Shown here: one piece after another, positions 14,785 to 36,028 of the stretch | Numbering within the stretch: position 1 is the stretch's first letter | Layout of the letters: each line of letters starts with the position of its first letter | Source: Ruficoccus amylovorans | Lineage (GTDB): Bacteria > Verrucomicrobiota > Verrucomicrobiia > Opitutales > Cerasicoccaceae | Reading direction: 5' to 3' | DNA length: 64,000 bases | Assembly: GCF_014230085.1 (NCBI RefSeq) | Contig: NZ_JACHVB010000063.1 | Location: forward strand, 1-64,000 | Made by a program: the position numbers and the translations under genes | The notes under the pieces: model-generated | Told to the model about the DNA's origin: nothing | The model's database searches: none | Seen by the model: the letters and a program-made list of their open reading frames with translations, nothing else

Positions 14785-15553
14785 CGCCCTCCTCCAGCCG
14801 ACGGCAGGCCCCCTCCAGCAGGATACTCAGCAGCGGACGCCGGGTCCGCGCGGCATCAAGGGTCAGGCAATAAAAGACGCACCCGAGCGTCTCCCCGCAG
14901 TGGAAAGGTTTGGCCAGACGGCAGACGCCCGGCCGGACGCTTGACTCGTCCAGCAGCATCCCGCCCGGTGCGGAAATGTCCCCGTCCGCAGACATGGTGC
15001 GGAGGCTGTCCGCGAGGCTCTCCCCGTCCGAGAACCGGCTGAACGGTCCCGCCAGCAGACGTTTTTGCTCGCCTGCACTCAAGAGCGAAAGCACGGCAAC
15101 CGCCCCGGCATGATCGGGCTCGAAGTAGAGCGTGTCGCCTGCGCGAATCACGCTGATCCCCCCCTCGACCGAGAGAGACTCACGCACGGCGAGCCGGTCT
15201 TCTTCCAAAACAATCAGACAGGCCGACTCCCCACCCTCGGCGGCCAACCGCTCAACCTCGATGCGGGCCAGGTCCGCGAACGCGGGACGGGCGCGGTTCA
15301 GGTACGGCCCCCACCCGAACACCCGCGACGAAAGCCGGTAACCGGCGTCAGCGAGTCGCTCGACGTAACCGAGGGCTTCGAGGGATTTCAACAGCCGGGC
15401 CAGCGTCGAGTCCTGCACGCCGGGCAGCGCGGTCTTCATCTCGCTGTAGCGCATCCGGCCCGCGCCGGAGCGGATCAGCAGGTCGAGCACGGCCAGCCCG
15501 CGCTGGAGCGACAGGAGCGAAGGCTTGGAGGAAGAGTCGGAGGAAGGCATCAC
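14762..15553 (-). CDS. IclR family transcriptional regulator
   Basis: A 263-residue regulator with an N-terminal winged helix (about residues 13-75, SLQRGLAVLDLLIRSGAGRM, then STLARLLKSLEALGYVERL). A C-terminal ligand-binding domain follows, with the YRLSSRVFGWG hinge and VCRLAKPFHCG pocket segment. Two starts are possible: GTG 15553 (GTGA overlap with the sulfatase stop) or ATG 15550 (TGATG overlap). Either shows translational coupling to the upstream sulfatase gene, so this regulator probably controls sulfatase expression in response to a sugar or acid product. The 3' end overlaps the convergent small gene by 23 bases. Confidence 0.87.
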   Translation of the reverse strand: MMPSSDSSSKPSLLSLQRGLAVLDLLIRSGAGRMRYSEMKTALPGVQDSTLARLLKSLEALGYVERLADAGYRLSSRVFGWGPYLNRARPAFADLARIEVERLAAEGGESACLIVLEEDRLAVRESLSVEGGISVIRAGDTLYFEPDHAGAVAVLSLLSAGEQKRLLAGPFSRFSDGESLADSLRTMSADGDISAPGGMLLDESSVRPGVCRLAKPFHCGETLGCVFYCLTLDAARTRRPLLSILLEGACRRLEEGVSPLAGQ

Positions 15554-17064
15554 GCAGGGGCTATCCGTGGCATAGGCAGGACATCCTTGGCCATCTCAGC
15601 TTGGACAAAACGGTGATACAAGCGCATTTTCACCTCCGCCCAGGCCGGGTCGTCGAAGCGGTTCTCACACTCGCCGGGGTCGTCCCGCAGGTCGTAGAGC
15701 TCGCCCTCGTCGCTGTCGCGGTAAATGGTCAGCTTGTAGCGCTCGTCGATGTAGGTCCGCAACTCGACCGATCCGGGGACGTGGTTGTTCTCGACCAGGC
15801 AATGGTCGCGGGCCGCCCCGACCTCTCCCACCCAAACAGGCAACTGGTCCACCCCGGACATGTGGCCGGGCTTCTCCAGCCCGGCGGCGGCCAGCAACGT
15901 CACGGGAAGATCGACGAGACTCTGCAAGGCATTGCTACGGACTCCGGCCGGGATATGCCCCGGCCAGCGCGCAGCCATCGGCACCTTTACCCCGTCCTCG
16001 TAGTGGAAGGGGCCTTTGGCGATCAGGCTGTGGTGCCCGAGGTAGTGCCCGTGGTCGGTGGTGAAGACCACCAGCGTCTTGTCGGTCAGCCCGAGCTCGT
16101 CCAGGCAGTCGAGGGTCTGGCCAATCATGTGGTCCATGAACGAGACCATCCCGTAGTAAAGCGCGAGATCGCGCCGCGTCTGCGCGGGGTCCTGCACATG
16201 GGAATGCACCCCGTGCATCCATTTGCCCTTAATACCATAGTCCTCCCTGCTGGCCCCCTCGCTCATGGCGAAGCGGTGGAAGCGCGGGCTGTGGCGGTGG
16301 CCGTCGGCTTGCGGCGCGGGCAGGGTCAGCGTATCCGGGTCGTACATCGTGTCCCAGGGCGCGGGCACGAGGTAGGGCGGGTGCGGATCGAAGTAGCTCG
16401 ACCACAGAAAGAAGGGCTGCCCGCGTCCGGCCCACTCGCGGATGAGGACGTTCGTGCGCTCGGCGATCCAGGTGTTGAGGTGAAACTCCTGCGGGATGTT
16501 CCAACGGCCATGCTGCGGCGCGTGGGTGCCGGTCGGCTCGCAGAAGCACTCGCGCCAGTTTTTGAAGCCCTTTTCCTCCATCCACAGGGCGTAGTGCTGG
16601 CCGACATGGGCCTCGTCTCCGTGGTTGCGAGCCAGCTCGAAGTGGTCGAAACCGTAAAACGGCCCCTCAAAGGTCCGCCAGAACTCCAGATCCTGCAGCA
16701 CCGGGTACGCCTCCAGCGACGGGAACTCCGGGGGCGAAGCCAGTGGCTGGAAGTGCGCCTTGCCAATGAGGCCCGTCGCGTAGCCCAGCTCACGCCAACG
16801 GTCGTTCATGGTGGGACGCGACTCGTCAAGTTTGGTCCCGAGCGTGTAGGCGCCGTGCTGGCTGGGGTACTGCCCAGTCAGGATACTGGAGCGGGTCGGG
16901 GTGCAGGTCGGGTTCGGACAGTAGGCCCGATCGAAGACCATCCCCTGCGCCGCCAGCCGGTCGAGGTTTGGGGTCCGGATTTCCGGATTGTTGTAGCCCA
17001 GCGTCATCCAGTGCTGCTGGTCGCTGGTGATTAAAAGCACATTGGGACGGGCAACCGACTGCAT
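15550..17064 (-). CDS. Sulfatase (formylglycine type)
   Basis: A 504-residue arylsulfatase/choline-sulfatase-like enzyme. The formylglycine motif is CTPTR with Cys54. Metal-binding segments are NVLLITSDQQHW at the N-terminus and VVFTTDHGHYLGHH around residue 310. The C-terminus has the usual LYDLRDDPGE strand. ATG 17064 is chosen; the frame stays open upstream to a TTG at 17103. No signal peptide is visible, since the protein begins MQSVARPN, so a cytoplasmic location acting on imported sulfated sugars is likely. It is co-transcribed with the IclR gene downstream. The substrate is unknown. Confidence 0.9.
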   Translation of the reverse strand: MQSVARPNVLLITSDQQHWMTLGYNNPEIRTPNLDRLAAQGMVFDRAYCPNPTCTPTRSSILTGQYPSQHGAYTLGTKLDESRPTMNDRWRELGYATGLIGKAHFQPLASPPEFPSLEAYPVLQDLEFWRTFEGPFYGFDHFELARNHGDEAHVGQHYALWMEEKGFKNWRECFCEPTGTHAPQHGRWNIPQEFHLNTWIAERTNVLIREWAGRGQPFFLWSSYFDPHPPYLVPAPWDTMYDPDTLTLPAPQADGHRHSPRFHRFAMSEGASREDYGIKGKWMHGVHSHVQDPAQTRRDLALYYGMVSFMDHMIGQTLDCLDELGLTDKTLVVFTTDHGHYLGHHSLIAKGPFHYEDGVKVPMAARWPGHIPAGVRSNALQSLVDLPVTLLAAAGLEKPGHMSGVDQLPVWVGEVGAARDHCLVENNHVPGSVELRTYIDERYKLTIYRDSDEGELYDLRDDPGECENRFDDPAWAEVKMRLYHRFVQAEMAKDVLPMPRIAPA

Positions 17065-17294
17065 GCTTTCGTTTTTGATATTTAATACCTTAAACGCAAG
17101 CAAAAATCATAATCCCCCACTCCACAGATCAGCCGGAGGGACGTTTTTGATCGGTTTACCCTTAACTGAAGCATTTTTTGCAACTATATGAATGAATTCT
17201 TCACATATTATTGAACCATTTTGAAAAAAACGTTACTGAATCGGTTTCGCATTACCCAACCTAATTCTACGACTAGCACTTCAACTTCATAATT

Positions 17295-17774
17295 ATGATG
17301 ACCAAAGCTGCCCCGGCACAACGCCGCAAAGGCTTCACGCTGCTTGAGGTATTGATCGCGATTGCGCTTTTGGCCGCCATCGTCGCGCTCCTTATCACCA
17401 ACCTCGACCGCATCCTCGGCGGTGGTAACAAGGAAGTCGCCCGCATCTTCGTCAACGAAACGCTCGAAACGCCCCTTATGACCTACCGGGTACACATGGG
17501 AAGCTACCCGACGACCGAGATGGGGCTTAAGGCCCTGATGATCCGTCCCTCCGACGAGGCCGTCAACTGGCAGGGACCGTACATCAAGCAACTCTCCAAA
17601 GACCCGTGGGGTAACGAGTACCAGTACCGCTTCCCCGGTGAAAAGAACACCGAGTCCTACGACCTGTGGTCCTGGGGGCCCGACGGCCAGGAAAGCGCCG
17701 ACGATATTGGCAACTGGAATCCGCAGCTCATGGGAGACTCCGGCAACCAGGCCTCCACCACGGATAATTTCTAA
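17295..17774 (+). CDS. gspG: Type II secretion major pseudopilin GspG
   Basis: A 159-residue pseudopilin with the leader RRKGFTLLEVLIAIALLAA, cleaved after Gly and N-methylated on Phe. The body is GspG-like: YPTTEMGLKALM, WQGPYIKQLSKDPWGNEYQY and the C-terminal YDLWSWGPDGQE calcium loop. It builds the shaft of the type II pseudopilus. It is the first gene of the secretion operon that runs to 30043. Two tandem ATGs (17295, 17298) compete as start. The gene sits divergent to the sulfatase gene across 230 bases that must contain the operon promoter. Confidence 0.93.
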   Translation: MMTKAAPAQRRKGFTLLEVLIAIALLAAIVALLITNLDRILGGGNKEVARIFVNETLETPLMTYRVHMGSYPTTEMGLKALMIRPSDEAVNWQGPYIKQLSKDPWGNEYQYRFPGEKNTESYDLWSWGPDGQESADDIGNWNPQLMGDSGNQASTTDNF

Positions 17775-17793: not shown

Positions 17794-18312
17794 ATGAGAA
17801 GCCCTGCACGCCGCCGGCGACAGCCAGCCTTCACCGTGATCGAAGTGTTCATGGTGGTGTCGCTGCTGGCCGCGGTGCTGGGGCTTGTCATCGTAAACTA
17901 TTTTAATATCTCCGGCTCTTACGACAAGCGCCCGGCCCGGGACCAGATCCAGCGGGCCGTGGCCGAAGGCTACCGGCTGGCACGGCTGGAAGGCGGCATC
18001 GTCAGCCTCCGCTACGAGGCGGAGAACGGCGCGCTCTCGCTCAGCGATCAGCAGGGCAAGGAGCTGGCCAGAATCACGCTGCCCGGCGTCCCCGAAGACG
18101 GGGAAATGACCTTCTACCGGATCAAGCCCGAGTCCCAGCTTACCGAGGAGCCGAACTTCGAAGCCGAGGAAGACCCGGTCGAGGTGCTGGATTTCCAGCC
18201 CTACGGAGCCTCACTCCCGTTCCTGGTCCACTACACTCATGGAACCGAAGCCTTTACCCTGAGATTTGACGCATTCTCCGCCCTTAGCTGGGAAGAAGAA
18301 GATGTTCTCTAA
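17794..18312 (+). CDS. gspH: Type II secretion minor pseudopilin GspH-like
   Basis: A 172-residue pseudopilin with leader RRRQPAFTVIEVFMVVSLLA; the residue before Phe is Ala in place of Gly, an allowed but less common cleavage site. The body is divergent and beta-rich. Its position between gspG and a gspI-like gene supports the assignment as a tip minor pseudopilin, although sequence alone is not decisive. It ends 11 bases inside the next gene. Confidence 0.72.
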   Translation: MRSPARRRRQPAFTVIEVFMVVSLLAAVLGLVIVNYFNISGSYDKRPARDQIQRAVAEGYRLARLEGGIVSLRYEAENGALSLSDQQGKELARITLPGVPEDGEMTFYRIKPESQLTEEPNFEAEEDPVEVLDFQPYGASLPFLVHYTHGTEAFTLRFDAFSALSWEEEDVL

Positions 18313-18835
18313 AGCCACCCCCTCTTTCCCGCGTCGAGCGGGATTTACCCTCGCAGAAGTGGTTGTCGCCACCGTGCTGCTGGGGCTGGCTGCGACTGTC
18401 CTCGGGAGAACGGTTTCCGACGCCATGCGCGCCTATTCCATGACGCGCCTGTCCAACCCATACAGCTACGCCCTGCGCCACGTGCGTCAGGAAATCATGG
18501 AAATCCCCTCACGCGAACAGCTTGAGGAAGGCGGCACAATCGAGGTTTACGTCCCCAACCCCGGCGGCAGCGACAAGAGCGAAACCACCATCGCGGTCAG
18601 CGCCCGCTGGGAAGCCGAGATCTACCCCACCCGCCTGCTCAACGTCTATGTCGTCGAGCTGGACATATCCTTCGAGGCCGAGGGGGAGGCGGAATCTTTC
18701 CAGAGACGCATCACCGCGTACCGTCCGAACTGGGCTGACGCCGAGGAAAACTCGACCCTGCTTCAGGCCAAGGAAAAGGAATTCGAGCTGCGGCTGGCCG
18801 CCCGCGGTATCACCGAAAGCGAGGACGACTCATGA
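18302..18835 (+). CDS. gspI: Type II secretion minor pseudopilin GspI-like
   Basis: A 177-residue pseudopilin starting at ATG 18302, which overlaps the end of the previous gene; this start places the leader FPRRAGFTLAEVVVATVLLG near the N-terminus. The body (FQRRITAYRPNW) is short, as in GspI. It forms the pseudopilus tip complex together with the J and K proteins. The assignment rests mainly on order, G-H-I-J-K. Confidence 0.72.
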   Translation: MFSKATPSFPRRAGFTLAEVVVATVLLGLAATVLGRTVSDAMRAYSMTRLSNPYSYALRHVRQEIMEIPSREQLEEGGTIEVYVPNPGGSDKSETTIAVSARWEAEIYPTRLLNVYVVELDISFEAEGEAESFQRRITAYRPNWADAEENSTLLQAKEKEFELRLAARGITESEDDS

Positions 18836-19488
18836 AGGTGCACCGCTTCCGGGCTGGCATGAGTTTTCTGGAGGTCCTGCTGGCCGTGGCCATGCTGGGC
18901 CTGCTCATCGTTGCCGGGGCCACCATGCTTTTCGCGCTCACACGCAGTTACTTCACCCTCGAAACCAGTCCGCTCTTTGACCGGCACGCAGACGGCGTGA
19001 TCGGCCTGCTGCGCTCCCTGGCCAGTGAATCCGGCCCTCCCCCCGACCCCAACAGCAACGCGCGACCGGGTCCGCAATTCGGATGGAGTACCTCTCCGGT
19101 TAGTCAAAAATCCACCCTCTCCTTCAAGATCGACCGCGATCTGGCCTTCTTCGTCTCCGACGAGCATCCGCTCCCGGCCATCGACGCGTTTCTGGAGTTC
19201 GACGAAGAAAACCACCAGTTCTGGCTGGCCTGGTACGTTGACCCGAAATTCACCAACAACAACCGGACGATCAACTACACCCTGCTCTCCCCCTGGGCCT
19301 CCGATATCCAGTACGGCTACTACGACGAAGGGCAAAATCAGTGGGAGTTCGAATTCGCCAGCGACGACAGCCGCCAGCATGGCAACGAGAAGCCCCGGAA
19401 CGTGACCCTGATTTTTGACCGCGACGATGTCGTCGTCCGGCGAACCATCTACCTGGACACCCCCACGCACCATGTTCTCGACTACTAG
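18832..19488 (+). CDS. gspJ: Type II secretion minor pseudopilin GspJ-like
   Basis: A 218-residue pseudopilin with the leader FRAGMSFLEVLLAVAMLGLL; the position after Gly is Met, and Glu at mature position 5 is kept. The size and the beta-rich C-terminus fit GspJ. It overlaps the preceding gene by ATGA and the following one by 17 bases. It belongs to the tip complex with I and K. Confidence 0.75.
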   Translation: MKVHRFRAGMSFLEVLLAVAMLGLLIVAGATMLFALTRSYFTLETSPLFDRHADGVIGLLRSLASESGPPPDPNSNARPGPQFGWSTSPVSQKSTLSFKIDRDLAFFVSDEHPLPAIDAFLEFDEENHQFWLAWYVDPKFTNNNRTINYTLLSPWASDIQYGYYDEGQNQWEFEFASDDSRQHGNEKPRNVTLIFDRDDVVVRRTIYLDTPTHHVLDY

Positions 19489-20755
19489 GCAGCAGCGGAA
19501 GCGGCGGGGAGTCGTCATCGTCCTGGCCCTGGGCATGATCCTGCTCATGACCTGGCTGGCCCTGGAAATCCTGCGCGGCGTGCGCCAGGACCTGGCCGTC
19601 ACGACCTCACCCGTCAGCCGGACGCAACTTCGGGAAACCGCCTATCAGTTGCTCGAGGTAAGCATCGGCGTGCTGGCCGAGGTCAAGCGCTTTGAGGGCG
19701 GCATCTATTCCCCGTCACAGGGCTGGGGCCTCCCCCTGACCTATGCCGGAATGGCCCACTCCGCCAAACTCAAGAGCGCCCTGCCCCAGGAAACCCCACC
19801 TCCGGCCCCACCCGCTAACAGCGACGACGAGCTGGGATTTGACGAAACCGAACAGACCGACACGACTGACACCGCCCAGGCGGAAACCGACGAGGCTGAG
19901 TCCTTTCTCAACGACCTGGTCTTCGACGTGGAAAACGCGGAAGCGGCCCAGGACGGATTCGAACGCGCGGTCACGCAGGTTGAACCCTCAGCCGAGACGA
20001 CCGGCCAGATGTCCGCCGAAACCGCCTTGATCGAGCTTCCGCCCGGCATCCAGGCCCGGGTGCGACTCTTTGACGAGTCGGGCAAGCTCTCGCTCACCGA
20101 TACAAGCGAAGCCCGCTGGCTTCTCTTTTTCGAGCAGATGGGCTTCGAGGATTCCGAGTCGAAGACGCTGACCGACAGCCTGCTGGACTGGATCGACCCC
20201 GACGAGGAGGAACGCGAAAACGGTGCCGAGACCGAGACCTACGCCCAGCTCGACCCGCCCTACCGCTCCGCCAACCGCCCGTTGCGTGACTTCCGCGAAT
20301 TGCGCTACGTGCAGGGCTTCAAGACGCTGTTCTTCGACGAGCGCGGCGTCCCGAACGAATATTACAATACCTTCAAGGCCAACGTCTCCCTCTTCGGCAA
20401 GGGGGAGGTCAACTTCAACACCGCGAGCGAACTGGTGCTGCTCACCTTGGCCGAGGAGCGCGATTTTGATCCGGACCAGGTACTTACTTTCCTCGCCGGG
20501 ACGGACACGCAGTTCGGGACAGAAGATGACCGCATCCTCAGACCCGGCCTTGACGACAGCGAATTACCCAAAGACAATGATGGGAACGTTCTGCCCGCGA
20601 ACCGGTCGGTTAATTTTATCATTGCCGAAATCGCCGTCAGTGATGGTCAGAGTATCTACGTGCTTAATGCACTCCTGGATCTGACCCAGAAACATCCCGG
20701 CGGAACTTATCCCTTTCGCATTGTTCGTATAACTGAAAACCAGCCTCTATTTTAA
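19472..20755 (+). CDS. gspK: Type II secretion GspK-like tip protein
   Basis: A 427-residue protein beginning at ATG 19472. A basic start (RQQRKRRG) is followed by a hydrophobic helix (VVIVLALGMILLMTWLALEIL), the GspK/PilX type head. GspK hallmarks follow: KLSLTDTSEARWLLFFEQ, DSLLDWIDPDEE with acidic calcium-type residues, and NTASELVLLTL of the helix-hairpin region. Residues about 110-190 are an Asp/Glu/Ala-rich insert. It caps the pseudopilus. Confidence 0.85.
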   Translation: MFSTTRQQRKRRGVVIVLALGMILLMTWLALEILRGVRQDLAVTTSPVSRTQLRETAYQLLEVSIGVLAEVKRFEGGIYSPSQGWGLPLTYAGMAHSAKLKSALPQETPPPAPPANSDDELGFDETEQTDTTDTAQAETDEAESFLNDLVFDVENAEAAQDGFERAVTQVEPSAETTGQMSAETALIELPPGIQARVRLFDESGKLSLTDTSEARWLLFFEQMGFEDSESKTLTDSLLDWIDPDEEERENGAETETYAQLDPPYRSANRPLRDFRELRYVQGFKTLFFDERGVPNEYYNTFKANVSLFGKGEVNFNTASELVLLTLAEERDFDPDQVLTFLAGTDTQFGTEDDRILRPGLDDSELPKDNDGNVLPANRSVNFIIAEIAVSDGQSIYVLNALLDLTQKHPGGTYPFRIVRITENQPLF

Positions 20756-22251
20756 TGCCTAAAGCCCCGGTGCCCCCATCTGCCACCGACAAGCCGACCT
20801 CTGACCGGGTTCGGCTCGTCCCGTCGGCGCTGTTTTACGTGGCCAGCTACCCGATCCCCAAGGGCATTCGCAGCCGCGACATGGCCGCGATGGTACAGGG
20901 GCTGGTGGACGAGCATTCCCCTCTTCCCCTTGAGCAGACGAGCTGGGGCTTTCTGCTGGATAACCGCGGCATCAACAGCAGCCACTTCCTTTACTACGCC
21001 GGGGCCAAAGACCTGGTTTTCAAATCCGCCAGCGATGCGGTTTCCCTGAGCGAAACCGCTGTGCTCCCCGCCTTCGTCGCTACGCAGGGGCTGAGCTTCG
21101 ACACACCCACCTGGATATTTTTCCTGGAAAAAGAGTGCCTGAGCGCGCTCTTCTTCGAGAAGGCTTCCAACGTCCCCACCCGGCTCGTCTCGCGTTTTCT
21201 CTCCGACATCCTCCCGGGAACCGATTCGGTGTTTCTCAAGCGCGAAGAAATGCTTCGCAGCCTGACCAAGGCCGATTCCGATGAAAACATCGCCCCCGGC
21301 CTGATCCGTATTTCCGAAACCACTCCGCGCAAGAACAAGACCGTTTCTTTCCAACTCCAGCGCTGCGAGAGCGAGAACGACGACTGGAGAGACTGGAAGC
21401 GCACCGAATTCAGGAAGACGAACCGCTTGCTCGCCGCCGATGTCCGCGACCACACCACCCTGCTCGACCAGCAGCAGCGGGCCGGTCTCGGGCGCCGCCT
21501 CGGGCAGATAGCCACCGTCGTCGCCATCACCGTCGCGGCCCTGCTCATTTTCGAGTTTCTGCAATTCCGCCGCCAATCCGAAGCCGCCGCCCTCGCGCAG
21601 CAGGTCACGCGGCAGGCCCCCGAAGTCCAACGCCTGCAGGACATCGAAGCGATGGTCAAAACCCTCAAAACCCTTTTCGATCAGGACTTCCAGCCCTACC
21701 GCTGGCTGATGGAGCTGAATACGGGCCGCCCCGATTCCATTTCGTTCACCAGCTTTGCGGTGGATGACCAGGGCAGCCTCGTCTTCAACGGTCAGTCTCC
21801 CGAGGTCAAAACACTCAACGAGTACAAGTCCGTCCTCGACAAAAACCCACGCTTCAAACAGCCCCAGCTTTCAAACCTGAAGACAGACAAGGACGGCGTC
21901 ACCTTCACCATCAAATCCGAAACCGGCAACCTCCAGGCGGAGCTTCCGGCCGAGCTTCTCACCCCTCCCCCCGCAGCGGAAACCCCCGACGAGCCCGCGC
22001 CGGACACCGAGGTCGCCCAGGCGGCCCCGCCGGTCCACCGCCCCGGCCAGAACGGGAAAAAGAACCCCAACGGCACCCCCGGCAAAAAGAAGGCCCAAAA
22101 TGGCGGCAAGCCGCGCACCGGCGAAAAAAATGCCGCCGCCAGCCCGACCGACACGACCAGCGAAAGCGAGGCCGAACCGGCCGACGCCCCTGAAGAAACA
22201 AATGCCGAGCCCGCCCCTGACTCCGACGCCCCCAACCCCCCCGACGCATGA
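20755..22251 (+). CDS. gspL: Type II secretion inner-membrane protein GspL-like with long charged tail
   Basis: A 498-residue protein in the GspL slot. The N-terminal 240 residues are a cytoplasmic domain of reduced actin-like type (VRLVPSALFYVASYP, WGFLLDNRGINSSHFLYYAG). One membrane helix follows at about 247-268 (IATVVAITVAALLIFEFLQF), then a PilN/GspL-like periplasmic ferredoxin-like domain (ITFTSFAVDD-like region to about 400). Residues about 400-498 are rich in Pro, Ala, Lys and Glu with no predicted fold, an unusual periplasmic extension. It shares one base with gspK and overlaps gspM by ATGA. It should link the GspE ATPase to the periplasmic parts. Confidence 0.75.
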   Translation: MPKAPVPPSATDKPTSDRVRLVPSALFYVASYPIPKGIRSRDMAAMVQGLVDEHSPLPLEQTSWGFLLDNRGINSSHFLYYAGAKDLVFKSASDAVSLSETAVLPAFVATQGLSFDTPTWIFFLEKECLSALFFEKASNVPTRLVSRFLSDILPGTDSVFLKREEMLRSLTKADSDENIAPGLIRISETTPRKNKTVSFQLQRCESENDDWRDWKRTEFRKTNRLLAADVRDHTTLLDQQQRAGLGRRLGQIATVVAITVAALLIFEFLQFRRQSEAAALAQQVTRQAPEVQRLQDIEAMVKTLKTLFDQDFQPYRWLMELNTGRPDSISFTSFAVDDQGSLVFNGQSPEVKTLNEYKSVLDKNPRFKQPQLSNLKTDKDGVTFTIKSETGNLQAELPAELLTPPPAAETPDEPAPDTEVAQAAPPVHRPGQNGKKNPNGTPGKKKAQNGGKPRTGEKNAAASPTDTTSESEAEPADAPEETNAEPAPDSDAPNPPDA

Positions 22252-22787
22252 TCCGCATTCTGCAAAGCATTTCCGCCCGCGAACGGCTCATGCTGGCCGC
22301 CTTTATCGCAGTCTGTATCCTGATCTGGGCCAGCTCGCTCTCGCGCCGCTGGGATGAGAGCGGCAAAGTCCTCTACGAAGCCCGCAAGGAGGTCAAGCAA
22401 CAGGAAATCTGGCTCAAAAGCTCCCCGCTTTTTCAGGCTCAGCTGGAGCAGGCCACCACGCGGCTCGACCGCGAGCAAATGCTCGACGGCAGCGGGCTGA
22501 CCGCGTTTGTCGATGCCTACTCGCGTGAGCACCAGCTCAAGCACCAGTTGACTTCGCCGCAGGTCGTCTCCGGTAAAGTCTATACCCGCTCGACCGTGCA
22601 GGTCACTTTCCGCAACATTTCCCTCGCCGACCTGATCGGGCTGCAACTGGCCCTTGACGAGAAGCGCCCCTATATCGCGGTCGAGAAGCTCGCCCTGTCC
22701 TCCAACCGGGCCGACCCGCGGCTGCTCAACGCCCGCCTCAGCCTGACCGCCCTTTACGTCAACCCTCCGGCTCAAAACGCCCCGTAA
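22248..22787 (+). CDS. gspM: Type II secretion inner-membrane protein GspM-like
   Basis: A 179-residue protein with one N-terminal membrane helix (ERLMLAAFIAVCILIWASSL), a coiled-coil stretch (residues about 35-80) and a small periplasmic domain (VQVTFRNISLADLIGLQLAL). Size, topology and position directly after the GspL-like gene (ATGA overlap) identify GspM, the GspL partner of the inner-membrane platform. Confidence 0.8.
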   Translation: MIRILQSISARERLMLAAFIAVCILIWASSLSRRWDESGKVLYEARKEVKQQEIWLKSSPLFQAQLEQATTRLDREQMLDGSGLTAFVDAYSREHQLKHQLTSPQVVSGKVYTRSTVQVTFRNISLADLIGLQLALDEKRPYIAVEKLALSSNRADPRLLNARLSLTALYVNPPAQNAP

Positions 22788-22811: not shown

Positions 22812-25800
22812 ATGCTCAAACTGAAACCCCACTGGTTCCTCCTGCCGTTACTGTTCGCCTGGGCACTCGCCCCGGCCTCGGCCCAGCCCGCGCCGGCCGC
22901 CGACACGCAGGCGCACGACATTATCTGCAAACCCGCCGAAGGCATTTCTCCCGATGAAATGGTCGGCCCCATCGTGATGGGCAACATGCCGGTCCTTCAA
23001 GCCCTGGATTTGCTGAGCAAATTCAGCGGACGGGTCATCCTCCCCGGCGAGGGACTTCCCAGCGGCAGGCTCAACTTCAACAGCGGCAGCAAGCTCAAGC
23101 GCACCGACGCCATCTTCGCCATCGAGAGTCTGCTCGCCCTCAACGGCGTCTCCCTGCGGCTGCTCGACAACGGCTTCGTACGGGCCATCTCCTCGGCCAA
23201 CCCCGACAAGAGCGCCCCACCCATGATCGACACCCTGCCCGAGAACTCCATGTCGGAGCAGATTTACACGAAGATTTTCAAGCTCAAGTACGCGGACAGC
23301 CGCTCCGCCTACAACAACGTCCGCGGCCTCCTCTCGGACCGTCGCCGCTCCTCGATGCAGAACCAGTCCGAGACCAATTCGCTGCTCATCACCGACAGCC
23401 TGATCAACCTCCAGCGCATCGAGAAAGTCCTCGAATACCTGGACCAGCCGCCGGATGCGCGCATGGAGCTGTACACCTTCCCCGTCAAGTACGGCTCGGC
23501 CTGGAACATCCGCACCTCCCTCCAGCAGATCCTGCGCACCGAGATGAAGAACCGGCTCAACGACAGCATGGTCTTCGTGGACAGCCGCACGAACAAGCTG
23601 CTCGTCGTCACCCACCCGACAAACCTCGAATTCTTTGAAACCATCGTGAAGGATCTCGACCAGGAGATCGCCCCCTTCACCACCACCGAAGTCATCAAGA
23701 TCACCCAGGGCAACTTTTGGAGCATCTGGAGCACGATCAACGGCATCGTCCGGCACCAGCAACGCGAGTTCTCCCGCCGGGGCTTCAGTGTGCAGGAGCG
23801 CGAGGAGAGCGACGAGGTCGGACGCCTCTCCGGCGGCAGCGAAACCGCCTCCGTCGAAGCCCCTGCTGGAGGCGAGGAAAGCACCGAACTGCCCGCCCTG
23901 GAAATGCCCACCACGGCCTCCGACCCCAATGCCGTCATGGTCGAAGACACCACGCCCGAGCTTCAATTCAGCCCCTATGTCGGCCTCTACGCCGACCCCT
24001 CGAACCTCGCGTTCGTCGTGTACGGAACCAATAACGACATCGCGCGGATCAAGCAGCTCATCGCCCAGCTTGACATCAAGTCCCCGCCCTACGTCACCAG
24101 CAAGGTCTTCACCATCGAGCACGCCCTGGCCGGAGATATCCGCAATGTCATCGAATACACCGTGAACGTCCAACGACGTAACTTCGCCCGTGCCGGACTC
24201 AGCACCGACAACCGAACCTCCTCGGCCGGGCCCGAAGCAGCCGGGCAGCAGTCAGCCGAACAGGGCTTCGAGTACAGCAACTTCATCTCGACCATCGCCG
24301 ACAACCGTAACAACACCATTCTCGTGCAAGGCACCCAACAGGACATCGCCCAAATCGGCCAACTGGTTGAGAAGCTCGACGTGCCCAGCGCCCCGCTCAC
24401 GCAGAACGAGGTCATTTATCTCAAGCATGCCGAGGCCAGCACGCTCGCCCGCGTCGTCCAGAACATCATCAACTACCAACGCTGGATGTTCTCCCGCCAG
24501 CGCACCGTCTCCCAGTCCAACAACGGCGACGCCTCTGCCCTCGCCAACCCCGAGATCGGGTTCGAGTTCAGTAACTACGCCATGGTCGGCGCGGACCGCC
24601 GCACCAACGCACTCTTCGCCTACGGGACCAAGCAGGACCTTGAGCGCATACGCTCTATTGTCACCGAGACCGACATCCCGGTCGAACCCATCACCACGAC
24701 CCGGGTTTTCCCGCTGACGCACACCGACGCCAGCCAGACTGCGTCCCTCATCAACAACATCATAAACGGCCAGCGCCGCGCCCTCAACCAGGTGCGCTCC
24801 GAAAGCCGCGAGGTGCAAAACCCGGCCGCACGCGAAGCCAACGCCCCGGCCGACCCGACCGCCGCGCCCAGCCAGGGTGTGATCGAGGGCAATGAGGCGC
24901 TCCAGTTCAGCCCCTTCATCAGTATCACGCCGGACCGCCGCAGTAATTCGCTCATCGTTTACGGCACCGCCTCGGACATCCGCCAGCTCGATGACCTGAT
25001 TAAGCAGATCGACATCGAGGTCGCCCCGCTGACCAGCAGCAAGGTCTTTCTGCTGGAAAACGCCCAGGCCCGCAGCCTCTACGCCGTGCTCAACAATGTC
25101 GTACGCGGCCAGGAACGCGCCCTGCGCCAGGTCCGCTCCAGCATTCAGCAGATCCGCAACATCCACCCGGACGACCCGAACGCTTCCGCCGCCGAGGTCA
25201 CGCTGGAAGCCCTCCAGTTCAGCCCTTATATCACCATCACCCCGAATGACCGCAACAACAGCATCATCGTTTACGGGACCGACAGCGACATCACCCAGCT
25301 CGAAAACCTGATCGAGATCAGCGATGTGCAGATCTCGCCCAAGACGCAAAGCCGCACCTTCTTCATCCGGCACGCTGACGCCAACGAGGTCGCCTCGACC
25401 ATCTCCAAACTCATCAGCCAGCAGCAGCGTGTGCGTGAACGCGAAAGCACCCTCACCCGCATTTTCCGCCGCGGTGCCAACGGCCAGGACGAAGGCGGCG
25501 AAGCCGACGGCGCCATTGGCATGGGGCAGGAAACCTTTGCCGGCGGTGGAGCAGGTGGAGGCCAGGGCGATCTGTTGACCGAAACCTCATCCGCCACTTA
25601 CAGCGACATCTTCTCCTTTGACGAAGACCTCCAGTTCAGCCCCTACGTGAGCCTCGTGGCCGACGACCGCAGTAACGCCGTGCTCGCCTACGGGACGCAA
25701 TTCGACCTGGAGCAGATCGGCGAACTCATCAAGCAGATCGACGACGTGCTGCCGCAGGTGCGCATCGAGGTCGTCATCGCCGAGGTGATTCTGTCCGACA

Positions 25801-26672
25801 AGCAGGTTTCCGGCCTGGACTCCTTCGGGATCAGCTACAATGTCACCGCCCCGAACCAGACCAGCATGAACACGAGTGCCCCGGCCATTTCCAGTGGCAA
25901 CCCGGCCTTCGAGGGCTCGTTCTCGATCAACGACTTCAGCCTCGACACGGTCTTCCGGGTGGCGAAGGAAAACAAGTTCGTCAAGGTCCTCTCCGCCCCG
26001 TCGCTGACCACCACCCACAACCGGCAGGCCGTGGTTAACGTCGGCGAGGCCCGCCCGATCATCACCAGCTCGGCCTCCAGTCTCGACAGCTCGGACCTCG
26101 TAACCCGCTCCACCGTCGAGTACCGCGACATCGGCATCAACCTGAAGGTTCGCCCGCTCATCAGCACCAAGGGCTACATCCAGATGGACATCGAGCAGGT
26201 GGTCGAAACCGTCATCGACACCCAGACCATTGACGGCAACGAGCAGCCGATCATCAGCACACGGCGGGCCATGTCCTTCCTCAGCGTACGCGACAAGGAG
26301 GTCATCGTCATGGCCGGACTCCAACAGGTGGACTCCTCCAAAACCGACGGCAGCGTCTTCATCCTGGGCGACCTGCCCGTCTTCGGCCCACTCTTCCAGC
26401 CTGAAAACAACGACCAGGCCGTTCGCGAACTGATTATCTTCATCAAACCCTACATCGTGGACAGCTTCGACGAGTCGCAGTTGCTCACCTCCGAAGAGCT
26501 TGACCGCACCGCCATCGGCCAGGATATCGCGACCTATCTTGAGAAGGGCCGCTTCAAGGAGCAGGAGAAGCTCATCCCTCCGCCCCCGGACCCCGAGGAA
26601 GCCGAGGAAGACGTTGCCAACTCCCGCACCCAGAACACCAACACCAACACCACGACCGGCCCCCGGCGATGA
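22812..26672 (+). CDS. gspD: Type II secretion secretin GspD with about eight N1-type repeats
   Basis: Outer-membrane secretin of 1286 residues, about twice the usual 650-700. A signal peptide (to about 25) is followed by an N0 domain (about 35-125, MGNMPVLQALDLLSKFSG). Eight N1-type KH-like repeats then start near residues 150, 218, 292, 427, 530, 627, 740 and 843. Most from the fourth on follow a pattern of F-hydrophobic-H.DA...., Q.R, LQFSPY.., D.R.N..I.YGT..D. The secretin pore domain spans about 975-1235 (VRIEVVIAEVIL, VVNVGEARPII, VIVMAGL), then a short Asn/Thr-rich tail. Between repeats are 30-60-residue Ser/Glu/Gly-rich linkers. The extra repeats would lengthen the periplasmic chamber. 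The next gene overlaps by ATGA. Confidence 0.93.
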   Translation: MLKLKPHWFLLPLLFAWALAPASAQPAPAADTQAHDIICKPAEGISPDEMVGPIVMGNMPVLQALDLLSKFSGRVILPGEGLPSGRLNFNSGSKLKRTDAIFAIESLLALNGVSLRLLDNGFVRAISSANPDKSAPPMIDTLPENSMSEQIYTKIFKLKYADSRSAYNNVRGLLSDRRRSSMQNQSETNSLLITDSLINLQRIEKVLEYLDQPPDARMELYTFPVKYGSAWNIRTSLQQILRTEMKNRLNDSMVFVDSRTNKLLVVTHPTNLEFFETIVKDLDQEIAPFTTTEVIKITQGNFWSIWSTINGIVRHQQREFSRRGFSVQEREESDEVGRLSGGSETASVEAPAGGEESTELPALEMPTTASDPNAVMVEDTTPELQFSPYVGLYADPSNLAFVVYGTNNDIARIKQLIAQLDIKSPPYVTSKVFTIEHALAGDIRNVIEYTVNVQRRNFARAGLSTDNRTSSAGPEAAGQQSAEQGFEYSNFISTIADNRNNTILVQGTQQDIAQIGQLVEKLDVPSAPLTQNEVIYLKHAEASTLARVVQNIINYQRWMFSRQRTVSQSNNGDASALANPEIGFEFSNYAMVGADRRTNALFAYGTKQDLERIRSIVTETDIPVEPITTTRVFPLTHTDASQTASLINNIINGQRRALNQVRSESREVQNPAAREANAPADPTAAPSQGVIEGNEALQFSPFISITPDRRSNSLIVYGTASDIRQLDDLIKQIDIEVAPLTSSKVFLLENAQARSLYAVLNNVVRGQERALRQVRSSIQQIRNIHPDDPNASAAEVTLEALQFSPYITITPNDRNNSIIVYGTDSDITQLENLIEISDVQISPKTQSRTFFIRHADANEVASTISKLISQQQRVRERESTLTRIFRRGANGQDEGGEADGAIGMGQETFAGGGAGGGQGDLLTETSSATYSDIFSFDEDLQFSPYVSLVADDRSNAVLAYGTQFDLEQIGELIKQIDDVLPQVRIEVVIAEVILSDKQVSGLDSFGISYNVTAPNQTSMNTSAPAISSGNPAFEGSFSINDFSLDTVFRVAKENKFVKVLSAPSLTTTHNRQAVVNVGEARPIITSSASSLDSSDLVTRSTVEYRDIGINLKVRPLISTKGYIQMDIEQVVETVIDTQTIDGNEQPIISTRRAMSFLSVRDKEVIVMAGLQQVDSSKTDGSVFILGDLPVFGPLFQPENNDQAVRELIIFIKPYIVDSFDESQLLTSEELDRTAIGQDIATYLEKGRFKEQEKLIPPPPDPEEAEEDVANSRTQNTNTNTTTGPRR

Positions 26673-27028
26673 AGCGACTGTTGATCTGCCTGCTCGCGGG
26701 AGCGCTTTCACCCTCGGCGGTACTGACCGCCGAGACGATGGAGGACTACACGCCGTTGCTGGAAAACTCCCCCTTCATGACCCTCGCTTTCAAGGAAAAG
26801 CTGGCCAAGAAGGGTGGAATTACAGGCTTGAGCCTGCACGGCTACATGTGGTTGGATGGTAAGTGGAACATCTGCCTGATACAAAAAGACGTGGAACCTG
26901 CCATTTGGGTCAGTGTCGGTGATGTAATCAAGGATTACAAAATCACGGAGTTCGACCCGGAGAGCGGTACACTCGTTTTGCAGAAAGGAAGCCTCACCGA
27001 CACCCTCAAGCTGGAGCAACCGAAATGA
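26669..27028 (+). CDS. Small exported protein in the type II operon, possible GspC/PilP HR-like domain
   Basis: A 119-residue protein with a signal peptide (MKRLLICLLAGALSPSAVLTAE) and a small beta domain. It contains ITGLSLHGYMWLDGKWNICLI, WVSVGDVIKDYKITEFDPESGTLVLQ and ends in LKLEQPK. The pattern of a short strand, an I.VGD.I..Y.I..I turn and a final strand resembles the homology-region domain of GspC and the PilP fold. No gspC-like gene is found elsewhere in the operon. It overlaps gspD and gspE by ATGA on both sides, so it is part of the machine. It may contact the secretin N0 domain; the GspC analogy is inference. Confidence 0.6.
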   Translation: MKRLLICLLAGALSPSAVLTAETMEDYTPLLENSPFMTLAFKEKLAKKGGITGLSLHGYMWLDGKWNICLIQKDVEPAIWVSVGDVIKDYKITEFDPESGTLVLQKGSLTDTLKLEQPK

Positions 27029-28770
27029 GTGCACATACGGTCCATGCCGCCGACAGGGATGTCCTGAACCTTCCGCCCATCCAGCGGATGCTGGAGGGTG
27101 TCGATCCCTCCCACATGCAGGCCCTCGCTGACGCCCCACGCGCCAAACGCCTCAGCCTGCTCTCCGATATGACCGGCCTGAGCGAACGCGAGCTGCTCGT
27201 CATGATTTCCAACGGCACCGGGCTCGATGTGCTCGACCGCTTCGAGGCCGACGCCGAGACCGCCGCCGCCATCCCGATTCGCATGATGCTCCGCTACCAG
27301 AGCGTCCCGATCAAGCCCCCGCCCGAGTGGGGCGATGTTTTCTGCATGGCCACTTCCTGGCCCCCCGACGACGAGATGCGCCAATGGCTCTACTCCGCCG
27401 TCCGCCGCGAGATCACCTTTTTCCTCGTCCTGCCCGAGAAGCTCAACCAGTTCCTCGTCGAGCGCTTCGGCGTCGGCTCCGACAGTCTTGACGACCCCGA
27501 GATGCAGGCCTTCCTCGACCAGACCGCCGAAAAGGAGGAGGAAAAGGAAGACGAAAACGCCGCCATCATCCGCTTCGTCAACGAAGTCATCGCTCAGGCC
27601 ATGCGCGACCGGGCGACGGACATCCACTTTGAGCCGCGCCGCGAATCTCTGCAAATCCGCTACCGCATCGACGGGCGACTCGTGCAGGTGCCCGTCCCCA
27701 AGAATCTCGTCGCCTACCAGGGGGCCATCATTTCGCGTATCAAGATCATGTCGCGGCTGAACATCTCCGAGAAACGCCGCCCGCAGGACGGACGTATCAC
27801 CTACGGCGGTGGCCGCGACGAGGTGGATGTGCGCGTCTCCACCCTGCCCACCATGTACGGCGAGAGCATCAGTATGCGCCTGCTCAGCGAGCAGAGCCAA
27901 CCAGCGTCCATTCAGGATCTCGGTTTTATCGAGTCCGACGAGCACGCCATCAACAAGATCCTCGACCTGCCGCACGGCATCATGCTCATCACCGGGCCGA
28001 CCGGCTCCGGCAAGAGCACCACCCTGAGCGCCTTTATGCACCGGCTCGGCACGCCCGAGCGGCGCGTCATCACCGTTGAAGACCCGATCGAATACGAAAT
28101 TCCCGAGGTCAACCAGACCCAGGTCAACCACGAGATCGGGCTGACCTTCGCCAGCGCCCTGCGCAGTGTCCTTCGCCAGGACCCGGACGTCATCATGGTC
28201 GGGGAAATCCGCGACCGCGAAACCGCCGACATCGCCGTGCGCGCCTCGCTCACCGGCCACCTTGTGCTCTCCACCCTGCACACCAACGACGCCCCTGGCG
28301 CGATCACGCGCCTGATCGACATGGAGATCGAGCCGTTTCTGATCGCCTCCTCGGTCGAGATGGTTATCGCCCAGCGCCTGGTCCGGCGGCTGTGCCAGTC
28401 GTGTGCAAAGGTGGACGACGCGGACATCACTTACGTCGGCTCCTGCCTCATGTCTCTCGGCCTGCCCCCCTCGGAAATCCAGTACGCCCACGGCATCAAG
28501 AAACCCTGCGGCTGCGAAGACTGCCGCAACCTCGGCTATCGGGGCCGGATCGGGCTGTACGAAATCCTCCGGGTGGACGACACCGTGCATGACCTGATTT
28601 ACAAGCAGGCTTCGGCGCGGGAACTGCGTAAGCGGGCGCTCGAACACGGCATGCGCACGCTCCAGGGCTGCGGCTGGCACCATGTGAAACACGGGCTGAC
28701 CAGCCTGTCCGAGATCATGCGCTACGCCGACCTCCAGTCCGAGGACGAAACCGTGGACAGCAAGAACTGA
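27025..28770 (+). CDS. gspE: Type II secretion ATPase GspE
   Basis: A 581-residue hexameric ATPase of the GspE/PilB/VirB11 superfamily. The N1E-like domain (1-150) ends in an acidic Glu/Lys linker. The N2 domain has ATDIHFEPRR, Walker A is GPTGSGKST (about 323-331), the Asp box is VEDPIEY, Walker B is VIMVGEIRDRETADIA, and the His box is TGHLVLSTLHTN. The zinc tetra-cysteine motif is CQSC (about 457) with CGCEDC (about 495-500), as in GspE. It powers pseudopilus extension at the inner membrane. It overlaps the small gene upstream by ATGA. Confidence 0.95.
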   Translation: MSAHTVHAADRDVLNLPPIQRMLEGVDPSHMQALADAPRAKRLSLLSDMTGLSERELLVMISNGTGLDVLDRFEADAETAAAIPIRMMLRYQSVPIKPPPEWGDVFCMATSWPPDDEMRQWLYSAVRREITFFLVLPEKLNQFLVERFGVGSDSLDDPEMQAFLDQTAEKEEEKEDENAAIIRFVNEVIAQAMRDRATDIHFEPRRESLQIRYRIDGRLVQVPVPKNLVAYQGAIISRIKIMSRLNISEKRRPQDGRITYGGGRDEVDVRVSTLPTMYGESISMRLLSEQSQPASIQDLGFIESDEHAINKILDLPHGIMLITGPTGSGKSTTLSAFMHRLGTPERRVITVEDPIEYEIPEVNQTQVNHEIGLTFASALRSVLRQDPDVIMVGEIRDRETADIAVRASLTGHLVLSTLHTNDAPGAITRLIDMEIEPFLIASSVEMVIAQRLVRRLCQSCAKVDDADITYVGSCLMSLGLPPSEIQYAHGIKKPCGCEDCRNLGYRGRIGLYEILRVDDTVHDLIYKQASARELRKRALEHGMRTLQGCGWHHVKHGLTSLSEIMRYADLQSEDETVDSKN

Positions 28771-28777
28771 CCGCCCG

Positions 28778-30043
28778 ATGCCGACCTACACGTACCGGGC
28801 CCTCGGTAAACGGGGACGCTATGAGAACGGGCGTATCGACGCCAACAGCAGCGACGAGGCGCGCCGTCGCCTGCGCGAGCGCGGCCTCAACCCCGTCGAG
28901 CTAAACTCGACTGGTGGCTCCTCGCAGGCCAAAAGTTCCTCACCACGCATCGCCGCCGCCGACATCAAGAAGATCGATCTGGACAAGATGCAACTTGGCC
29001 GCGCCAAGGCCGACAAGATCAGCCTCTCGCTGCTGGAGAAGATTTACCAGTTGGTGGAAAGCGGCATGCCGATGGGCGACGCCGTCAAATCCCTCAACCA
29101 GCGCCTGACCGACCCGGTGCTCCACGCCATCAGCGAAGAACTCTGGCGCGACCTGAGCGAAGGCTCCACCCTGGCCGCCGCCCTGCGCCGCCGGCCCAAG
29201 CTTTTCGACCCGACCCTGGCCTCCATGATCGAGGCGGGCGAGGCCACCGGGAACATCAAGCCCATCCTCGGCAACATCATCGAGCTGCTGGAAGCTCGAC
29301 TGGCCCTGCGCAAGGAGATCATCACCGGCCTCTCCTACCCGGCCTTCCTGCTCGTGGTTGTGTTCTTCGTCCTTATCTTCGTGCTCTTCTACCTCATGCC
29401 GAAGGTGGAAATGATGCTGCACAACATGGGCGGCGAGCTCTCGCTGGCAGCCAAGATTGTGGTCGGCTTCGCCAACTTCTCCCTCACCGGCGGCCCCATT
29501 CTCGTCGTGCTGGGCTTCGTCGCAGGCGTGGGGATTTTCCAGTGGCGCAAGACTGGCGAGGGCAAGCTCGCCACCGACCGTTTCCTGCTGCGCGTACCAG
29601 TGTTGAAAAACATCGTCATGAACGCTGAACTCAGCCGCATGGCCAATCTTTCCTCGATTCTGCTGGGCAGCGGCGTGGACACGACCGACGCGCTCAAACT
29701 GATCGAAAAGGGCTTCCGCAACGAGGAGATCCGTCAACACTTCCGCACCTGCCGCTCGCTCATTTCCGACGGAGCCTCGATCTCCTCGGCCCTGCACAGC
29801 CAGGATATCCTCGCCGACATGGACGCGGACATTCTCAGCATCAGTGAAAACACCGGCAGTCTGGTCAAGGGCTTCAGCCACATCTACCGCAACCGCCACG
29901 CCGGGCTGGAAGCACAGATGAAGCGCCTGACCACAGTCATCGCCACCGGAGCGCTGCTGTTCGTGTTTTCGCTCATCTTCCTGCTCGTTTTCGGCGTCGT
30001 CTCCTCGATCATGCAACTCAGCTCCTCCGTTCTGGGCGGATAA
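28778..30043 (+). CDS. gspF: Type II secretion inner-membrane platform protein GspF
   Basis: A 421-residue polytopic protein with an N-terminal PTYTYRALGKRG domain, two GspF cytoplasmic domains (LLEKIYQLVESGMPMGDAVK near 85 and MANLSSILLGSGVDTTDALK near 290), and hydrophobic segments at about 190-215, 225-250 and 385-415. It is the platform that turns with GspE to assemble the pseudopilus. It begins 7 bases after gspE and is the last gene of the operon. No prepilin peptidase (GspO) follows, so it must be elsewhere. Confidence 0.94.
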   Translation: MPTYTYRALGKRGRYENGRIDANSSDEARRRLRERGLNPVELNSTGGSSQAKSSSPRIAAADIKKIDLDKMQLGRAKADKISLSLLEKIYQLVESGMPMGDAVKSLNQRLTDPVLHAISEELWRDLSEGSTLAAALRRRPKLFDPTLASMIEAGEATGNIKPILGNIIELLEARLALRKEIITGLSYPAFLLVVVFFVLIFVLFYLMPKVEMMLHNMGGELSLAAKIVVGFANFSLTGGPILVVLGFVAGVGIFQWRKTGEGKLATDRFLLRVPVLKNIVMNAELSRMANLSSILLGSGVDTTDALKLIEKGFRNEEIRQHFRTCRSLISDGASISSALHSQDILADMDADILSISENTGSLVKGFSHIYRNRHAGLEAQMKRLTTVIATGALLFVFSLIFLLVFGVVSSIMQLSSSVLGG

Positions 30044-32420: not shown

Positions 32421-33884
32421 TCAAGGCTTTCGCCAGGCAGCACTGCGCTCGCGCAGGTACGGCGTCAGGTCGAGATGGCTGTCCTTGGCCAGGGGTGCGT
32501 CAGCCTGCGGCAAGCCCTGGCGCAGACGCTCCAATACCCCGGCATAGGCCGGATCGCTCGCGAGGTTGGTATGTTCCCAGCTATCGGTCCGGTGGTCGTA
32601 GAGTTCTTCCGAGCCATCCTCGTAGCGGATGTAGCGGAAGTTCCGGTCGCGCACGCTGTGGTTATTGCGGCCATGCGTGGTAAGGGAAACATGTTCCCAG
32701 TCGGCCCGCTCGGGATCTCGCAGCAGGGGAACGAGCGAGTAGCCCTCCAGTGGCGTGCGGGCGGGAACCCCGGCCAGTTCCAACACCGTTGGATAAAAGT
32801 CGAGCAAGTTGACCGGCTGGTCGCTGGTCGCATCGGCGACAATCCCCGGCCCGGCGAAAATAAACGGCACCTTTGTCGAACGTTCCCAGAGCGCCATCTT
32901 GGCGAAGCGGTTTTTCTCGCCCAGGTGGTAGCCGTTATCCCCCATCAGCACGACGATGGTGTTGTCGGCGTAGGGGCTTCCGGCGAGGGCGTCGAGCACC
33001 TGCCCGATCTGGTAGTCGGTGAAGGCGACACAGGCCAAATAAGCTTGAACAATCGCCTGCCACTCTCCTGCCAGTTGTGCCCACTCCGTCGTCGGAAAAC
33101 CCGGAATCGTGCAAAGTATCTGTGCAATGGCGGGCACGTCGTCCATGTCATCGGGCAGGTAAGGCGGAGTCTGCATCTCATCGCGCTTGAAAAGGTCGAA
33201 CCACTTCTGCGGCACGTACCAGGGCACATGCGGGCGGACAAAACCCACGCCCATGAAGAAAGGCTCCTGAATGCCGGCGTCGATCCGCTCGACGGCCCAC
33301 TGACGAATATCGTAGTCGGGCAGTTGCTCGTCCTTTTGCGGAAAAGCCCCCCAGTCCGTACTCGTGTAACGCGGGCCAGTCCAGTTGGGCTCGAAGTTCA
33401 GACGCATGTTCTCGGACGGCTTCGGACCGAAGCTGAAGCCGGGGCCATACTCGTCAAACGAGTGGGCCATGTCTCCGGCATGAAAGAGCTTCCCCGCCCC
33501 GAGCGTATGGTAGCCGTGAGCTTCGAGCAAATCGGGCAGAAAGACCGCCTCCACGCCCCCGGGCAGGTTGTCCATGATCTGGTCGTCACGGATGTGAAAA
33601 TAAATCCCCGTCGTCGCGGCGGAACGTCCGGTCCACAATGCCGCCCGACTAGGTCCGCACAGTGGAGCCGGACAGTGGGCGTTGAGAAAGGTCAGCCCCT
33701 CCGCGGCCAGACGGTCCATATTGGGGGTGATCGCCTGCGGGTGCCCCTTCATCGGGCCGATCCAGTCATTGAGATCGTCCACCATGATGATAAGGAAATT
33801 CGGTTGCGTCGGAGTCGCTTGCGCACAGGCCAGCGTCGCAGTGACAAGAAAAGCGGATAACAGGGCGGGTAATCTCAGGGTCAT
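32421..33884 (-). CDS. Exported sulfatase (formylglycine type)
   Basis: A 487-residue periplasmic or secreted sulfatase close to iduronate-2-sulfatase types. A signal peptide (LRLPALLSAFLVTATLACAQ) is followed by the metal-binding FLIIMVDDLNDW, the formylglycine motif CGPSR with Cys76, the VLMGDNGYHLGEKNRFAK segment, and the C-terminal ELYDHRTDSWEHTNLA. ATG 33884 is chosen because it places the signal peptide at the N-terminus; ATG 33938 is in frame upstream. It lies directly downstream of a heparinase-type lyase gene on the same strand. The pair should act on a sulfated uronate polymer; which polymer is inference. Confidence 0.88.
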   Translation of the reverse strand: MTLRLPALLSAFLVTATLACAQATPTQPNFLIIMVDDLNDWIGPMKGHPQAITPNMDRLAAEGLTFLNAHCPAPLCGPSRAALWTGRSAATTGIYFHIRDDQIMDNLPGGVEAVFLPDLLEAHGYHTLGAGKLFHAGDMAHSFDEYGPGFSFGPKPSENMRLNFEPNWTGPRYTSTDWGAFPQKDEQLPDYDIRQWAVERIDAGIQEPFFMGVGFVRPHVPWYVPQKWFDLFKRDEMQTPPYLPDDMDDVPAIAQILCTIPGFPTTEWAQLAGEWQAIVQAYLACVAFTDYQIGQVLDALAGSPYADNTIVVLMGDNGYHLGEKNRFAKMALWERSTKVPFIFAGPGIVADATSDQPVNLLDFYPTVLELAGVPARTPLEGYSLVPLLRDPERADWEHVSLTTHGRNNHSVRDRNFRYIRYEDGSEELYDHRTDSWEHTNLASDPAYAGVLERLRQGLPQADAPLAKDSHLDLTPYLRERSAAWRKP

Positions 33885-34016
33885 TGCCAGACGAGGGTAG
33901 TGTTTTTCGGGCCGGGTTCGATGGTATAACGCATTCATATTGGTAACATTGTTAGTCCTCTTTGGCTTCACATGCGGACAAAAAGCAAGGGTGCGATGAA
34001 TCTTTCCGCAACACAA

Positions 34017-35909: not shown

Positions 35910-36028
35910 AAAGCAAAACACCATTGATAACCACGCCAAGCACCGGAACTACTCAAGACTCCTGCCTTTCGACAAAAAAGCCGAGCGCGATCGCCATGCA
36001 CAGACAGCCGCGCCCGACTCGCGATAAA

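Follow-up and report, generated by a model that had tools for sequence, protein, structure and literature searches.

A type II secretion GspD of Ruficoccus amylovorans with six N3-type domains and its possible lengthened channel

The gspD gene at positions 22812-26672 (forward strand) of the window, a stretch of 64,000 nucleotides from Ruficoccus amylovorans (contig NZ_JACHVB010000063.1), encodes a secretin of the type II secretion system (T2SS) with eight N-type domains between N0 and the pore. As typed by sequence profiles, its plan is N0-N1-N2-(N3)n-pore, with n equal to six here, seven in Pontiellaceae, and three in a relative, G305. We favor the interpretation that the N3 domain of a T2SS secretin was multiplied in situ and that the resulting stack extends the enclosed channel in the direction of the inner membrane, and consider its chance of being correct to be about even. 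By domain counts within Verrucomicrobiota, the long-GspD system has the most N domains of the secretins examined here.

Domain organization of the long GspD

The gspD reading frame is intact, starts with ATG, and encodes 1286 amino acids; its third-position GC content (0.86) is high, as in the neighboring genes. The protein scores 449 bits with the NCBIfam GspD model TIGR02517, above the curated cut-off of 351, and the PilQ, HofQ, SctC, and MshL models each remain below their own cut-offs. In Pfam searches, Secretin_N is detected in eight stretches (E 2.7e-79) and Secretin as a single domain (E 4.2e-35). The ordinary GspD plan, that is, N0, N1, N2, and a single N3 by the pore, comes from published descriptions and lies outside the curated TIGR02517 definition. 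The protein departs from this plan, and since it has six N3-type domains instead of one, it is a GspD variant and not a standard member. An assembly artefact is ruled out, as the same array is present in independent genomes.

A typical signal peptide (MLKLKPHWFLLPLLFAWALAPASAQ, approximately residues 1-25; 22812-22886) is followed by the N0 domain, delineated from AlphaFold2 secondary structure (approximately 52-130; 22965-23201), and by N-type repeats starting at residues 151, 220, 291, 429, 531, 629, 742, and 846. To type them, N1, N2, and N3 profiles were derived from 19 GspDs of the ordinary three-domain plan, all belonging to the same order. Repeat 1 (approximately 151-216; 23262-23459) is of the N1 type, with 43.8 bits for N1, 4.5 for N2, and 0.7 for N3, and repeat 2 (approximately 220-286; 23469-23669) is of the N2 type, with 44.2 bits for N2, 13.5 for N1, and 7.4 for N3. 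For each of repeats 3-8, N3 is the highest-scoring profile (41.5 to 99.6 bits), and the same N3 type from repeat 3 onward is seen in all seven expanded secretins, this one and six further. The preliminary description had called all the repeats N1-type, a label that the type-specific profiles overturn. In the E. coli K-12 GspD, analyzed as a control, the expected three-domain region was found, but the order-level profiles type its domains unsharply, so the N1/N2/N3 assignment is limited to this lineage.

The N3-type repeats differ in the loop that connects helix 1 to strand 2. Repeat 3 (23682-24092; 54.8 bits) has a loop of 64 residues with a net charge of -11. The loops are short in repeat 4 (24096-24398; 59.6 bits), with 28 residues and charge -1, and repeat 5 (24402-24692; 41.5 bits), with 24 residues and charge 0; they have 39 residues (-3) in repeat 6 (24696-25031; 95.4 bits) and 30 residues (-1) in repeat 7 (25035-25343; 77.9 bits). 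Repeat 8 (25347-25757; 99.6 bits), which is next to the pore and belongs to the last-position clade of the repeat tree, making it the positional counterpart of the ordinary N3, again has a long loop, 65 residues with charge -9. The secretin domain (approximately residues 983-1223; 25758-26480) is recognized by TIGR02517 and by PF00263 at residues 1052-1217. All these features are on the forward strand.

Structural models are in agreement with folded repeats. The AlphaFold2 model of 1200 residues of GspD, based on an alignment of just four sequences, is of low confidence overall (mean pLDDT 52, pTM 0.26), yet still has eight beta-alpha-[loop]-beta-beta-alpha units with pLDDT of about 60-80, joined by long disordered linkers (mostly pLDDT 24-35), and a Foldseek search with it yields matches to solved GspDs. 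Repeat 7, modeled alone with an alignment of 26 N3 repeats, reaches pLDDT 87.8. In the PDB, it matches secretin N domains for the most part, such as XcpQ 5wln at 1.3 A rmsd, although the E-values exceed 0.001 because the domain is small. Pairwise identity among repeats 3-8 is 26-44%, thus they are clear homologues, but not recent copies.

Most of what the preliminary description proposed for this protein is upheld. Eight N domains between N0 and the pore are seen by Pfam, in the AlphaFold2 units, and in the single-repeat model, and both models and the PDB matches speak for folded domains over disordered inserts; the later repeats, said to be duplicated from one another, are mutually homologous at the identities given above. 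The acidic or polar linkers are real: repeats 3 and 8 have long, acidic ones, whereas in repeats 4-7 they are shorter and close to neutral. The longer tube stands as a natural structural consequence of the extra N domains, provided that these stack as rings.

The operon and the C' gene

The gene order G-H-I-J-K-L-M-D-C'-E-F is found in the window and in all expanded loci, and the long gspD is thus linked to T2SS genes. All are transcribed from the forward strand. The major pseudopilin GspG (17295-17774) has 104 bits with TIGR01710 (cut-off 88.85). It is followed by three pseudopilin-like genes. The one at the GspH position (17794-18312) has an N-terminal prepilin-like segment and a position conserved in long-secretin operons. 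The one at the GspI position (18296-18835), also conserved, carries the TIGR02532 prepilin motif and is of uncertain start, as the listed reading frame begins at 18266. The gene at the GspJ position (18832-19488) was assigned by its conserved position in long-secretin operons. GspK (19481-20755; start uncertain) has 83 bits with NF037980, below the equivalog cut-off of 130; the GspL-like protein (20755-22251) contains a PilN-like region (PF05137, E 1.5e-4, just below the cut-off) and was assigned also by position; the GspM-like protein (22248-22787) matches NF040576 at E 6.7e-5, below the cut-off. Downstream of gspD, the GspE ATPase (27025-28770) has TIGR02533 as its best family, with 528 bits against a cut-off of 630, and the platform protein GspF (28778-30043) was assigned by conserved position, being 51-73% identical in other operons with eight or nine domains. 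For GspE, GspK, and GspM, the best family is the expected one and the scores fall short of the equivalog cut-offs, which is unsurprising in a divergent phylum. The length of GspL does not differ with the array.

No canonical GspC gene was recognized in the long operon. Between gspD and gspE lies a small gene, denoted C' (26669-27028; 119 amino acids), whose product has a short, hydrophobic, signal-peptide-like N-terminus, an NSPF motif, and a beta-rich domain that, by family alignment, weakly resembles the GspC homology region (HR). The match of C' to the HR of E. coli GspC is colinear but weak (hhalign P 0.0011, probability 20%), and ranks first of 45 comparisons. Searches of the C' sequence against Pfam and the PDB gave no match, the PDB returning chance matches only. 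Gene order had suggested C' as a gene specific for long secretins, which was ruled out, since the family is widespread in the order and only the missing C-terminal tail tracks the array. This tail is 1-3 residues long in all six systems with eight or nine domains, 44 residues in the five-domain system of G305, and 48-115 residues in five adjacent three-domain systems; across the latter and 25 other listed entries, a few of which are the same gene in a second locus, it spans 33-194 residues. Long tails are basic, usually Pro/Arg-rich, and often contain an RRR(V/I)V motif. GspC combines an HR that binds N0 with an N-terminal transmembrane anchor and a linker that spans the periplasm; in C' of the eight- and nine-domain systems, a long linker is also absent, except in G290. 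The C' family, combining a signal or transmembrane segment, NSPF, an HR-like domain, and a basic tail, is apparently an undescribed small T2SS-linked family of this order.

The T2SS operon is flanked by two sulfatase-like genes and one heparinase/alginate-lyase-like gene (15550-17103, 32421-34016, and 34017-35939, all on the reverse strand), as judged from sequence, and a polysaccharide-degrading lifestyle is likely from these neighbors. A PADLOC search for a link to defence systems gave no match. Further along the window, the reverse strand encodes a 1062-aa protein (42078-45263) whose hydrophobic N-terminus (GFALIIALTLMAFVLLLLMSLATL) resembles PilX and which may be a large protein of the minor pilin type, together with an adjoining secreted protein of 247 amino acids (41338-42078).

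Occurrence and evolution

The preliminary description had left open that long secretins might be the norm in Verrucomicrobiota; they are not. When genomes of the phylum were surveyed with the GspD model, 260 of 289 proved to encode GspD-like secretins. Searching with the N3 region (repeats 3-8) at a threshold of E 1e-25 produced matches in four of 388 phylum genomes and in six of 223 genomes of the order, the latter including the three-domain protein of G470 and the five-domain protein of G305. Direct domain counts give eight domains in R. amylovorans and three relatives from the same order (G290, G291, and G039), whose copies are 55-73% identical to the R. amylovorans protein; nine in G160 and G248, both Pontiellaceae, of another class; and five in G305. 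About 85 other GspDs, the longest frames included, have at most three. Ordinary GspDs of Verrucomicrobiota have three such domains, and eight or nine are rare. Further expansions had been considered for the phylum's longest GspD frames, which reach 1214 aa, but these carry only two or three N domains. In G242, G019, and G106 (loci L164, L165, and L173), GspD-like secretins with just two detected N domains have an unassigned stretch between the two that may hold a divergent N2.

A contig scan with GspD peptides identified three of the genomes with expanded arrays: JAUIHT01, a Verrucomicrobiia metagenome-assembled genome with a 73% identical protein, and two Pontiellaceae isolates at 43%; beyond Verrucomicrobiota, the scan detects close relatives only, because the peptides were specific to the 1286-aa GspD. 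No homologues of the long GspD were found on plasmids, and literature searches returned no GspD with several N3 domains.

In the repeat tree, each N3 position forms one clade spanning the order and Pontiellaceae, with bootstraps of 98 for position 3, 88 for position 4, 94 for 5/6, 96 for 6/7, 91 for 7/8, and 98-100 for the last position; the Pontiellaceae arrays contain one extra repeat. Since each position is a single clade across both classes, the array is old and has been held by position. It appears, from this tree, to have been fixed once in the ancestor of the long clade, with the N3 positions diverging afterwards. In the secretin-core tree, the long systems group together (87) and are joined first by G305 (91) and next by the three-domain G303 and G311 (100). 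The GspG+E+F tree, which was midpoint-rooted and had one Kiritimatiellae outgroup, also recovers the long systems as a group (99) with G305 as sister (98), but places G303 and G311 among other three-domain systems; the two trees thus disagree on the nearest three-domain sister. The Pontiellaceae long systems nest within the order-level group, distant from the second T2SS of G248. This position appears to fit horizontal transfer of the 11-gene operon between the classes (G160/G248: L085/L008, L084/L007). Flanking genes common to the long operons of both classes, which might have pointed to substrates, were not found.

Proposed channel lengthening and alternatives

A typical GspD assembles as an outer-membrane channel of C15 symmetry through which folded proteins are secreted. 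In the T2SS, the N-module consists of N0-N1-N2, with N3 counted in the pore module, and published secretins have N0-N1-N2-N3 and the pore (PMC10550240). In the Klebsiella T2SS, a gap of 5-10 nm between the secretin and the inner-membrane platform is bridged by linkers of PulC (GspC) (PMC6882859). Extra N rings lengthen the secretin PilQ of Thermus, in which six N rings form a tube of 350 A (PMC5745081). We propose that the ring-building N3 domain was multiplied at its own site, between N2 and the pore, and that each added copy would form one more ring of the assembled channel. Assuming that these rings stack as a straight tube, the conduit would extend further toward the inner membrane; by comparison with PilQ, five extra rings should move its inner end by several nanometers, and could close a gap such as that of 5-10 nm to the platform. 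Such a conduit would enclose more of the pseudopilus and of the substrate path.

The N3 stack may also take over, by its structure, a spacing or tethering role that in ordinary systems of the order may fall to the basic C' tail, and the loss of this tail is consistent with a tether that is no longer needed. Because the long systems are one clade, the association between array and tail counts as effectively one evolutionary event. Tentatively, a distinct T2SS subtype can be envisaged, in which the N3-lengthened secretin reaches, or nearly reaches, the inner membrane, and a closed conduit with charged rings at both ends replaces the flexible tether. We regard this specific proposal as unlikely.

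The charged rings refer to the N3 loops. In all seven expanded secretins, the first and last loops are 41-68 residues long with charges of -5 to -13, and the middle ones have 22-39 residues and charges of -4 to +1; ordinary N3 loops have 34-57 residues and a mean charge of +0.6. The acidic loops of the first and last rings could project inward and so form a charged constriction at either end of the added segment. Serial filtering or sealing might then be the main role of the added rings, their acidic loops keeping the channel tight or sorting substrates, with length as a by-product. The long, strongly acidic terminal loops, unlike those of ordinary N3, agree with this, and in f1 pIV the N3 loops face the pore and N3 mutations make the channel leaky (PMC8563730). 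However, most added rings would lack a strong extra barrier, given the short, near-neutral loops of the middle repeats, and the lumen-facing orientation of the loops is presumptive. We therefore consider filtering as the main role rather unlikely.

A wide periplasm, the reason for the long tube offered in the preliminary description and the explanation given for Thermus PilQ (PMC5745081), is weakened by the second secretins of the same cells. Of the six genomes with a long secretin, at least five also encode an ordinary three-domain T2SS GspD: R. amylovorans (G000, contig C5; 806 aa), G290 (808 aa), G291 (858 aa), G160, and G248. Long and three-domain secretins must cross the same envelope, and most relatives of the same family and order possess no more than three domains; thus a wide envelope as the cause is improbable. 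Neutral growth of the N3 array by unequal exchange, tolerated without special function, is less probable still: the domain number does vary among relatives (3, 5, 8, 9), but positions are orthologous across two classes, the count is eight in R. amylovorans and its three relatives at the identities given above, and under neutrality one would expect more variation and stronger homogenisation of the array.

Returning to channel lengthening, the three-domain T2SS in the same cell and the series of three, five, eight, and nine domains in relatives provide built-in controls, which make the roles of ring number, N3 loops, and the inner-membrane gap directly testable. The 806-aa GspD of R. amylovorans belongs to the same order-level T2SS lineage as the long one and has the same gspG-F gene order, but has three N domains, and the C' gene was not found between its gspD and gspE. 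The five-domain system of G305 is likewise accompanied by another GspD, which has 709 aa and three N domains.

Among known secretins, PulD, XcpQ, and EpsD-type GspDs share with the long GspD the N0, N1, N2, pore-adjacent N3, and secretin domains, as well as the gspG-F operon, but they have one N3 in place of six, and the lack of a recognized canonical GspC gene sets the long operon apart. PilQ of Thermus thermophilus (PMC5745081) is similar in its extra N rings and longer periplasmic tube; it serves type IV pili and DNA uptake and has N0-N5, whereas the long GspD is of the protein-secretion type and has N0 and eight further domains, the gain coming from N3. Finally, DR_0774 of Deinococcus radiodurans (PDB 8co1), a multi-domain secretin and the top Foldseek match of the single N3 repeat, is annotated as a type IV piliation protein, has about 740 residues compared with 1286, and is 11-21% identical over the aligned parts.
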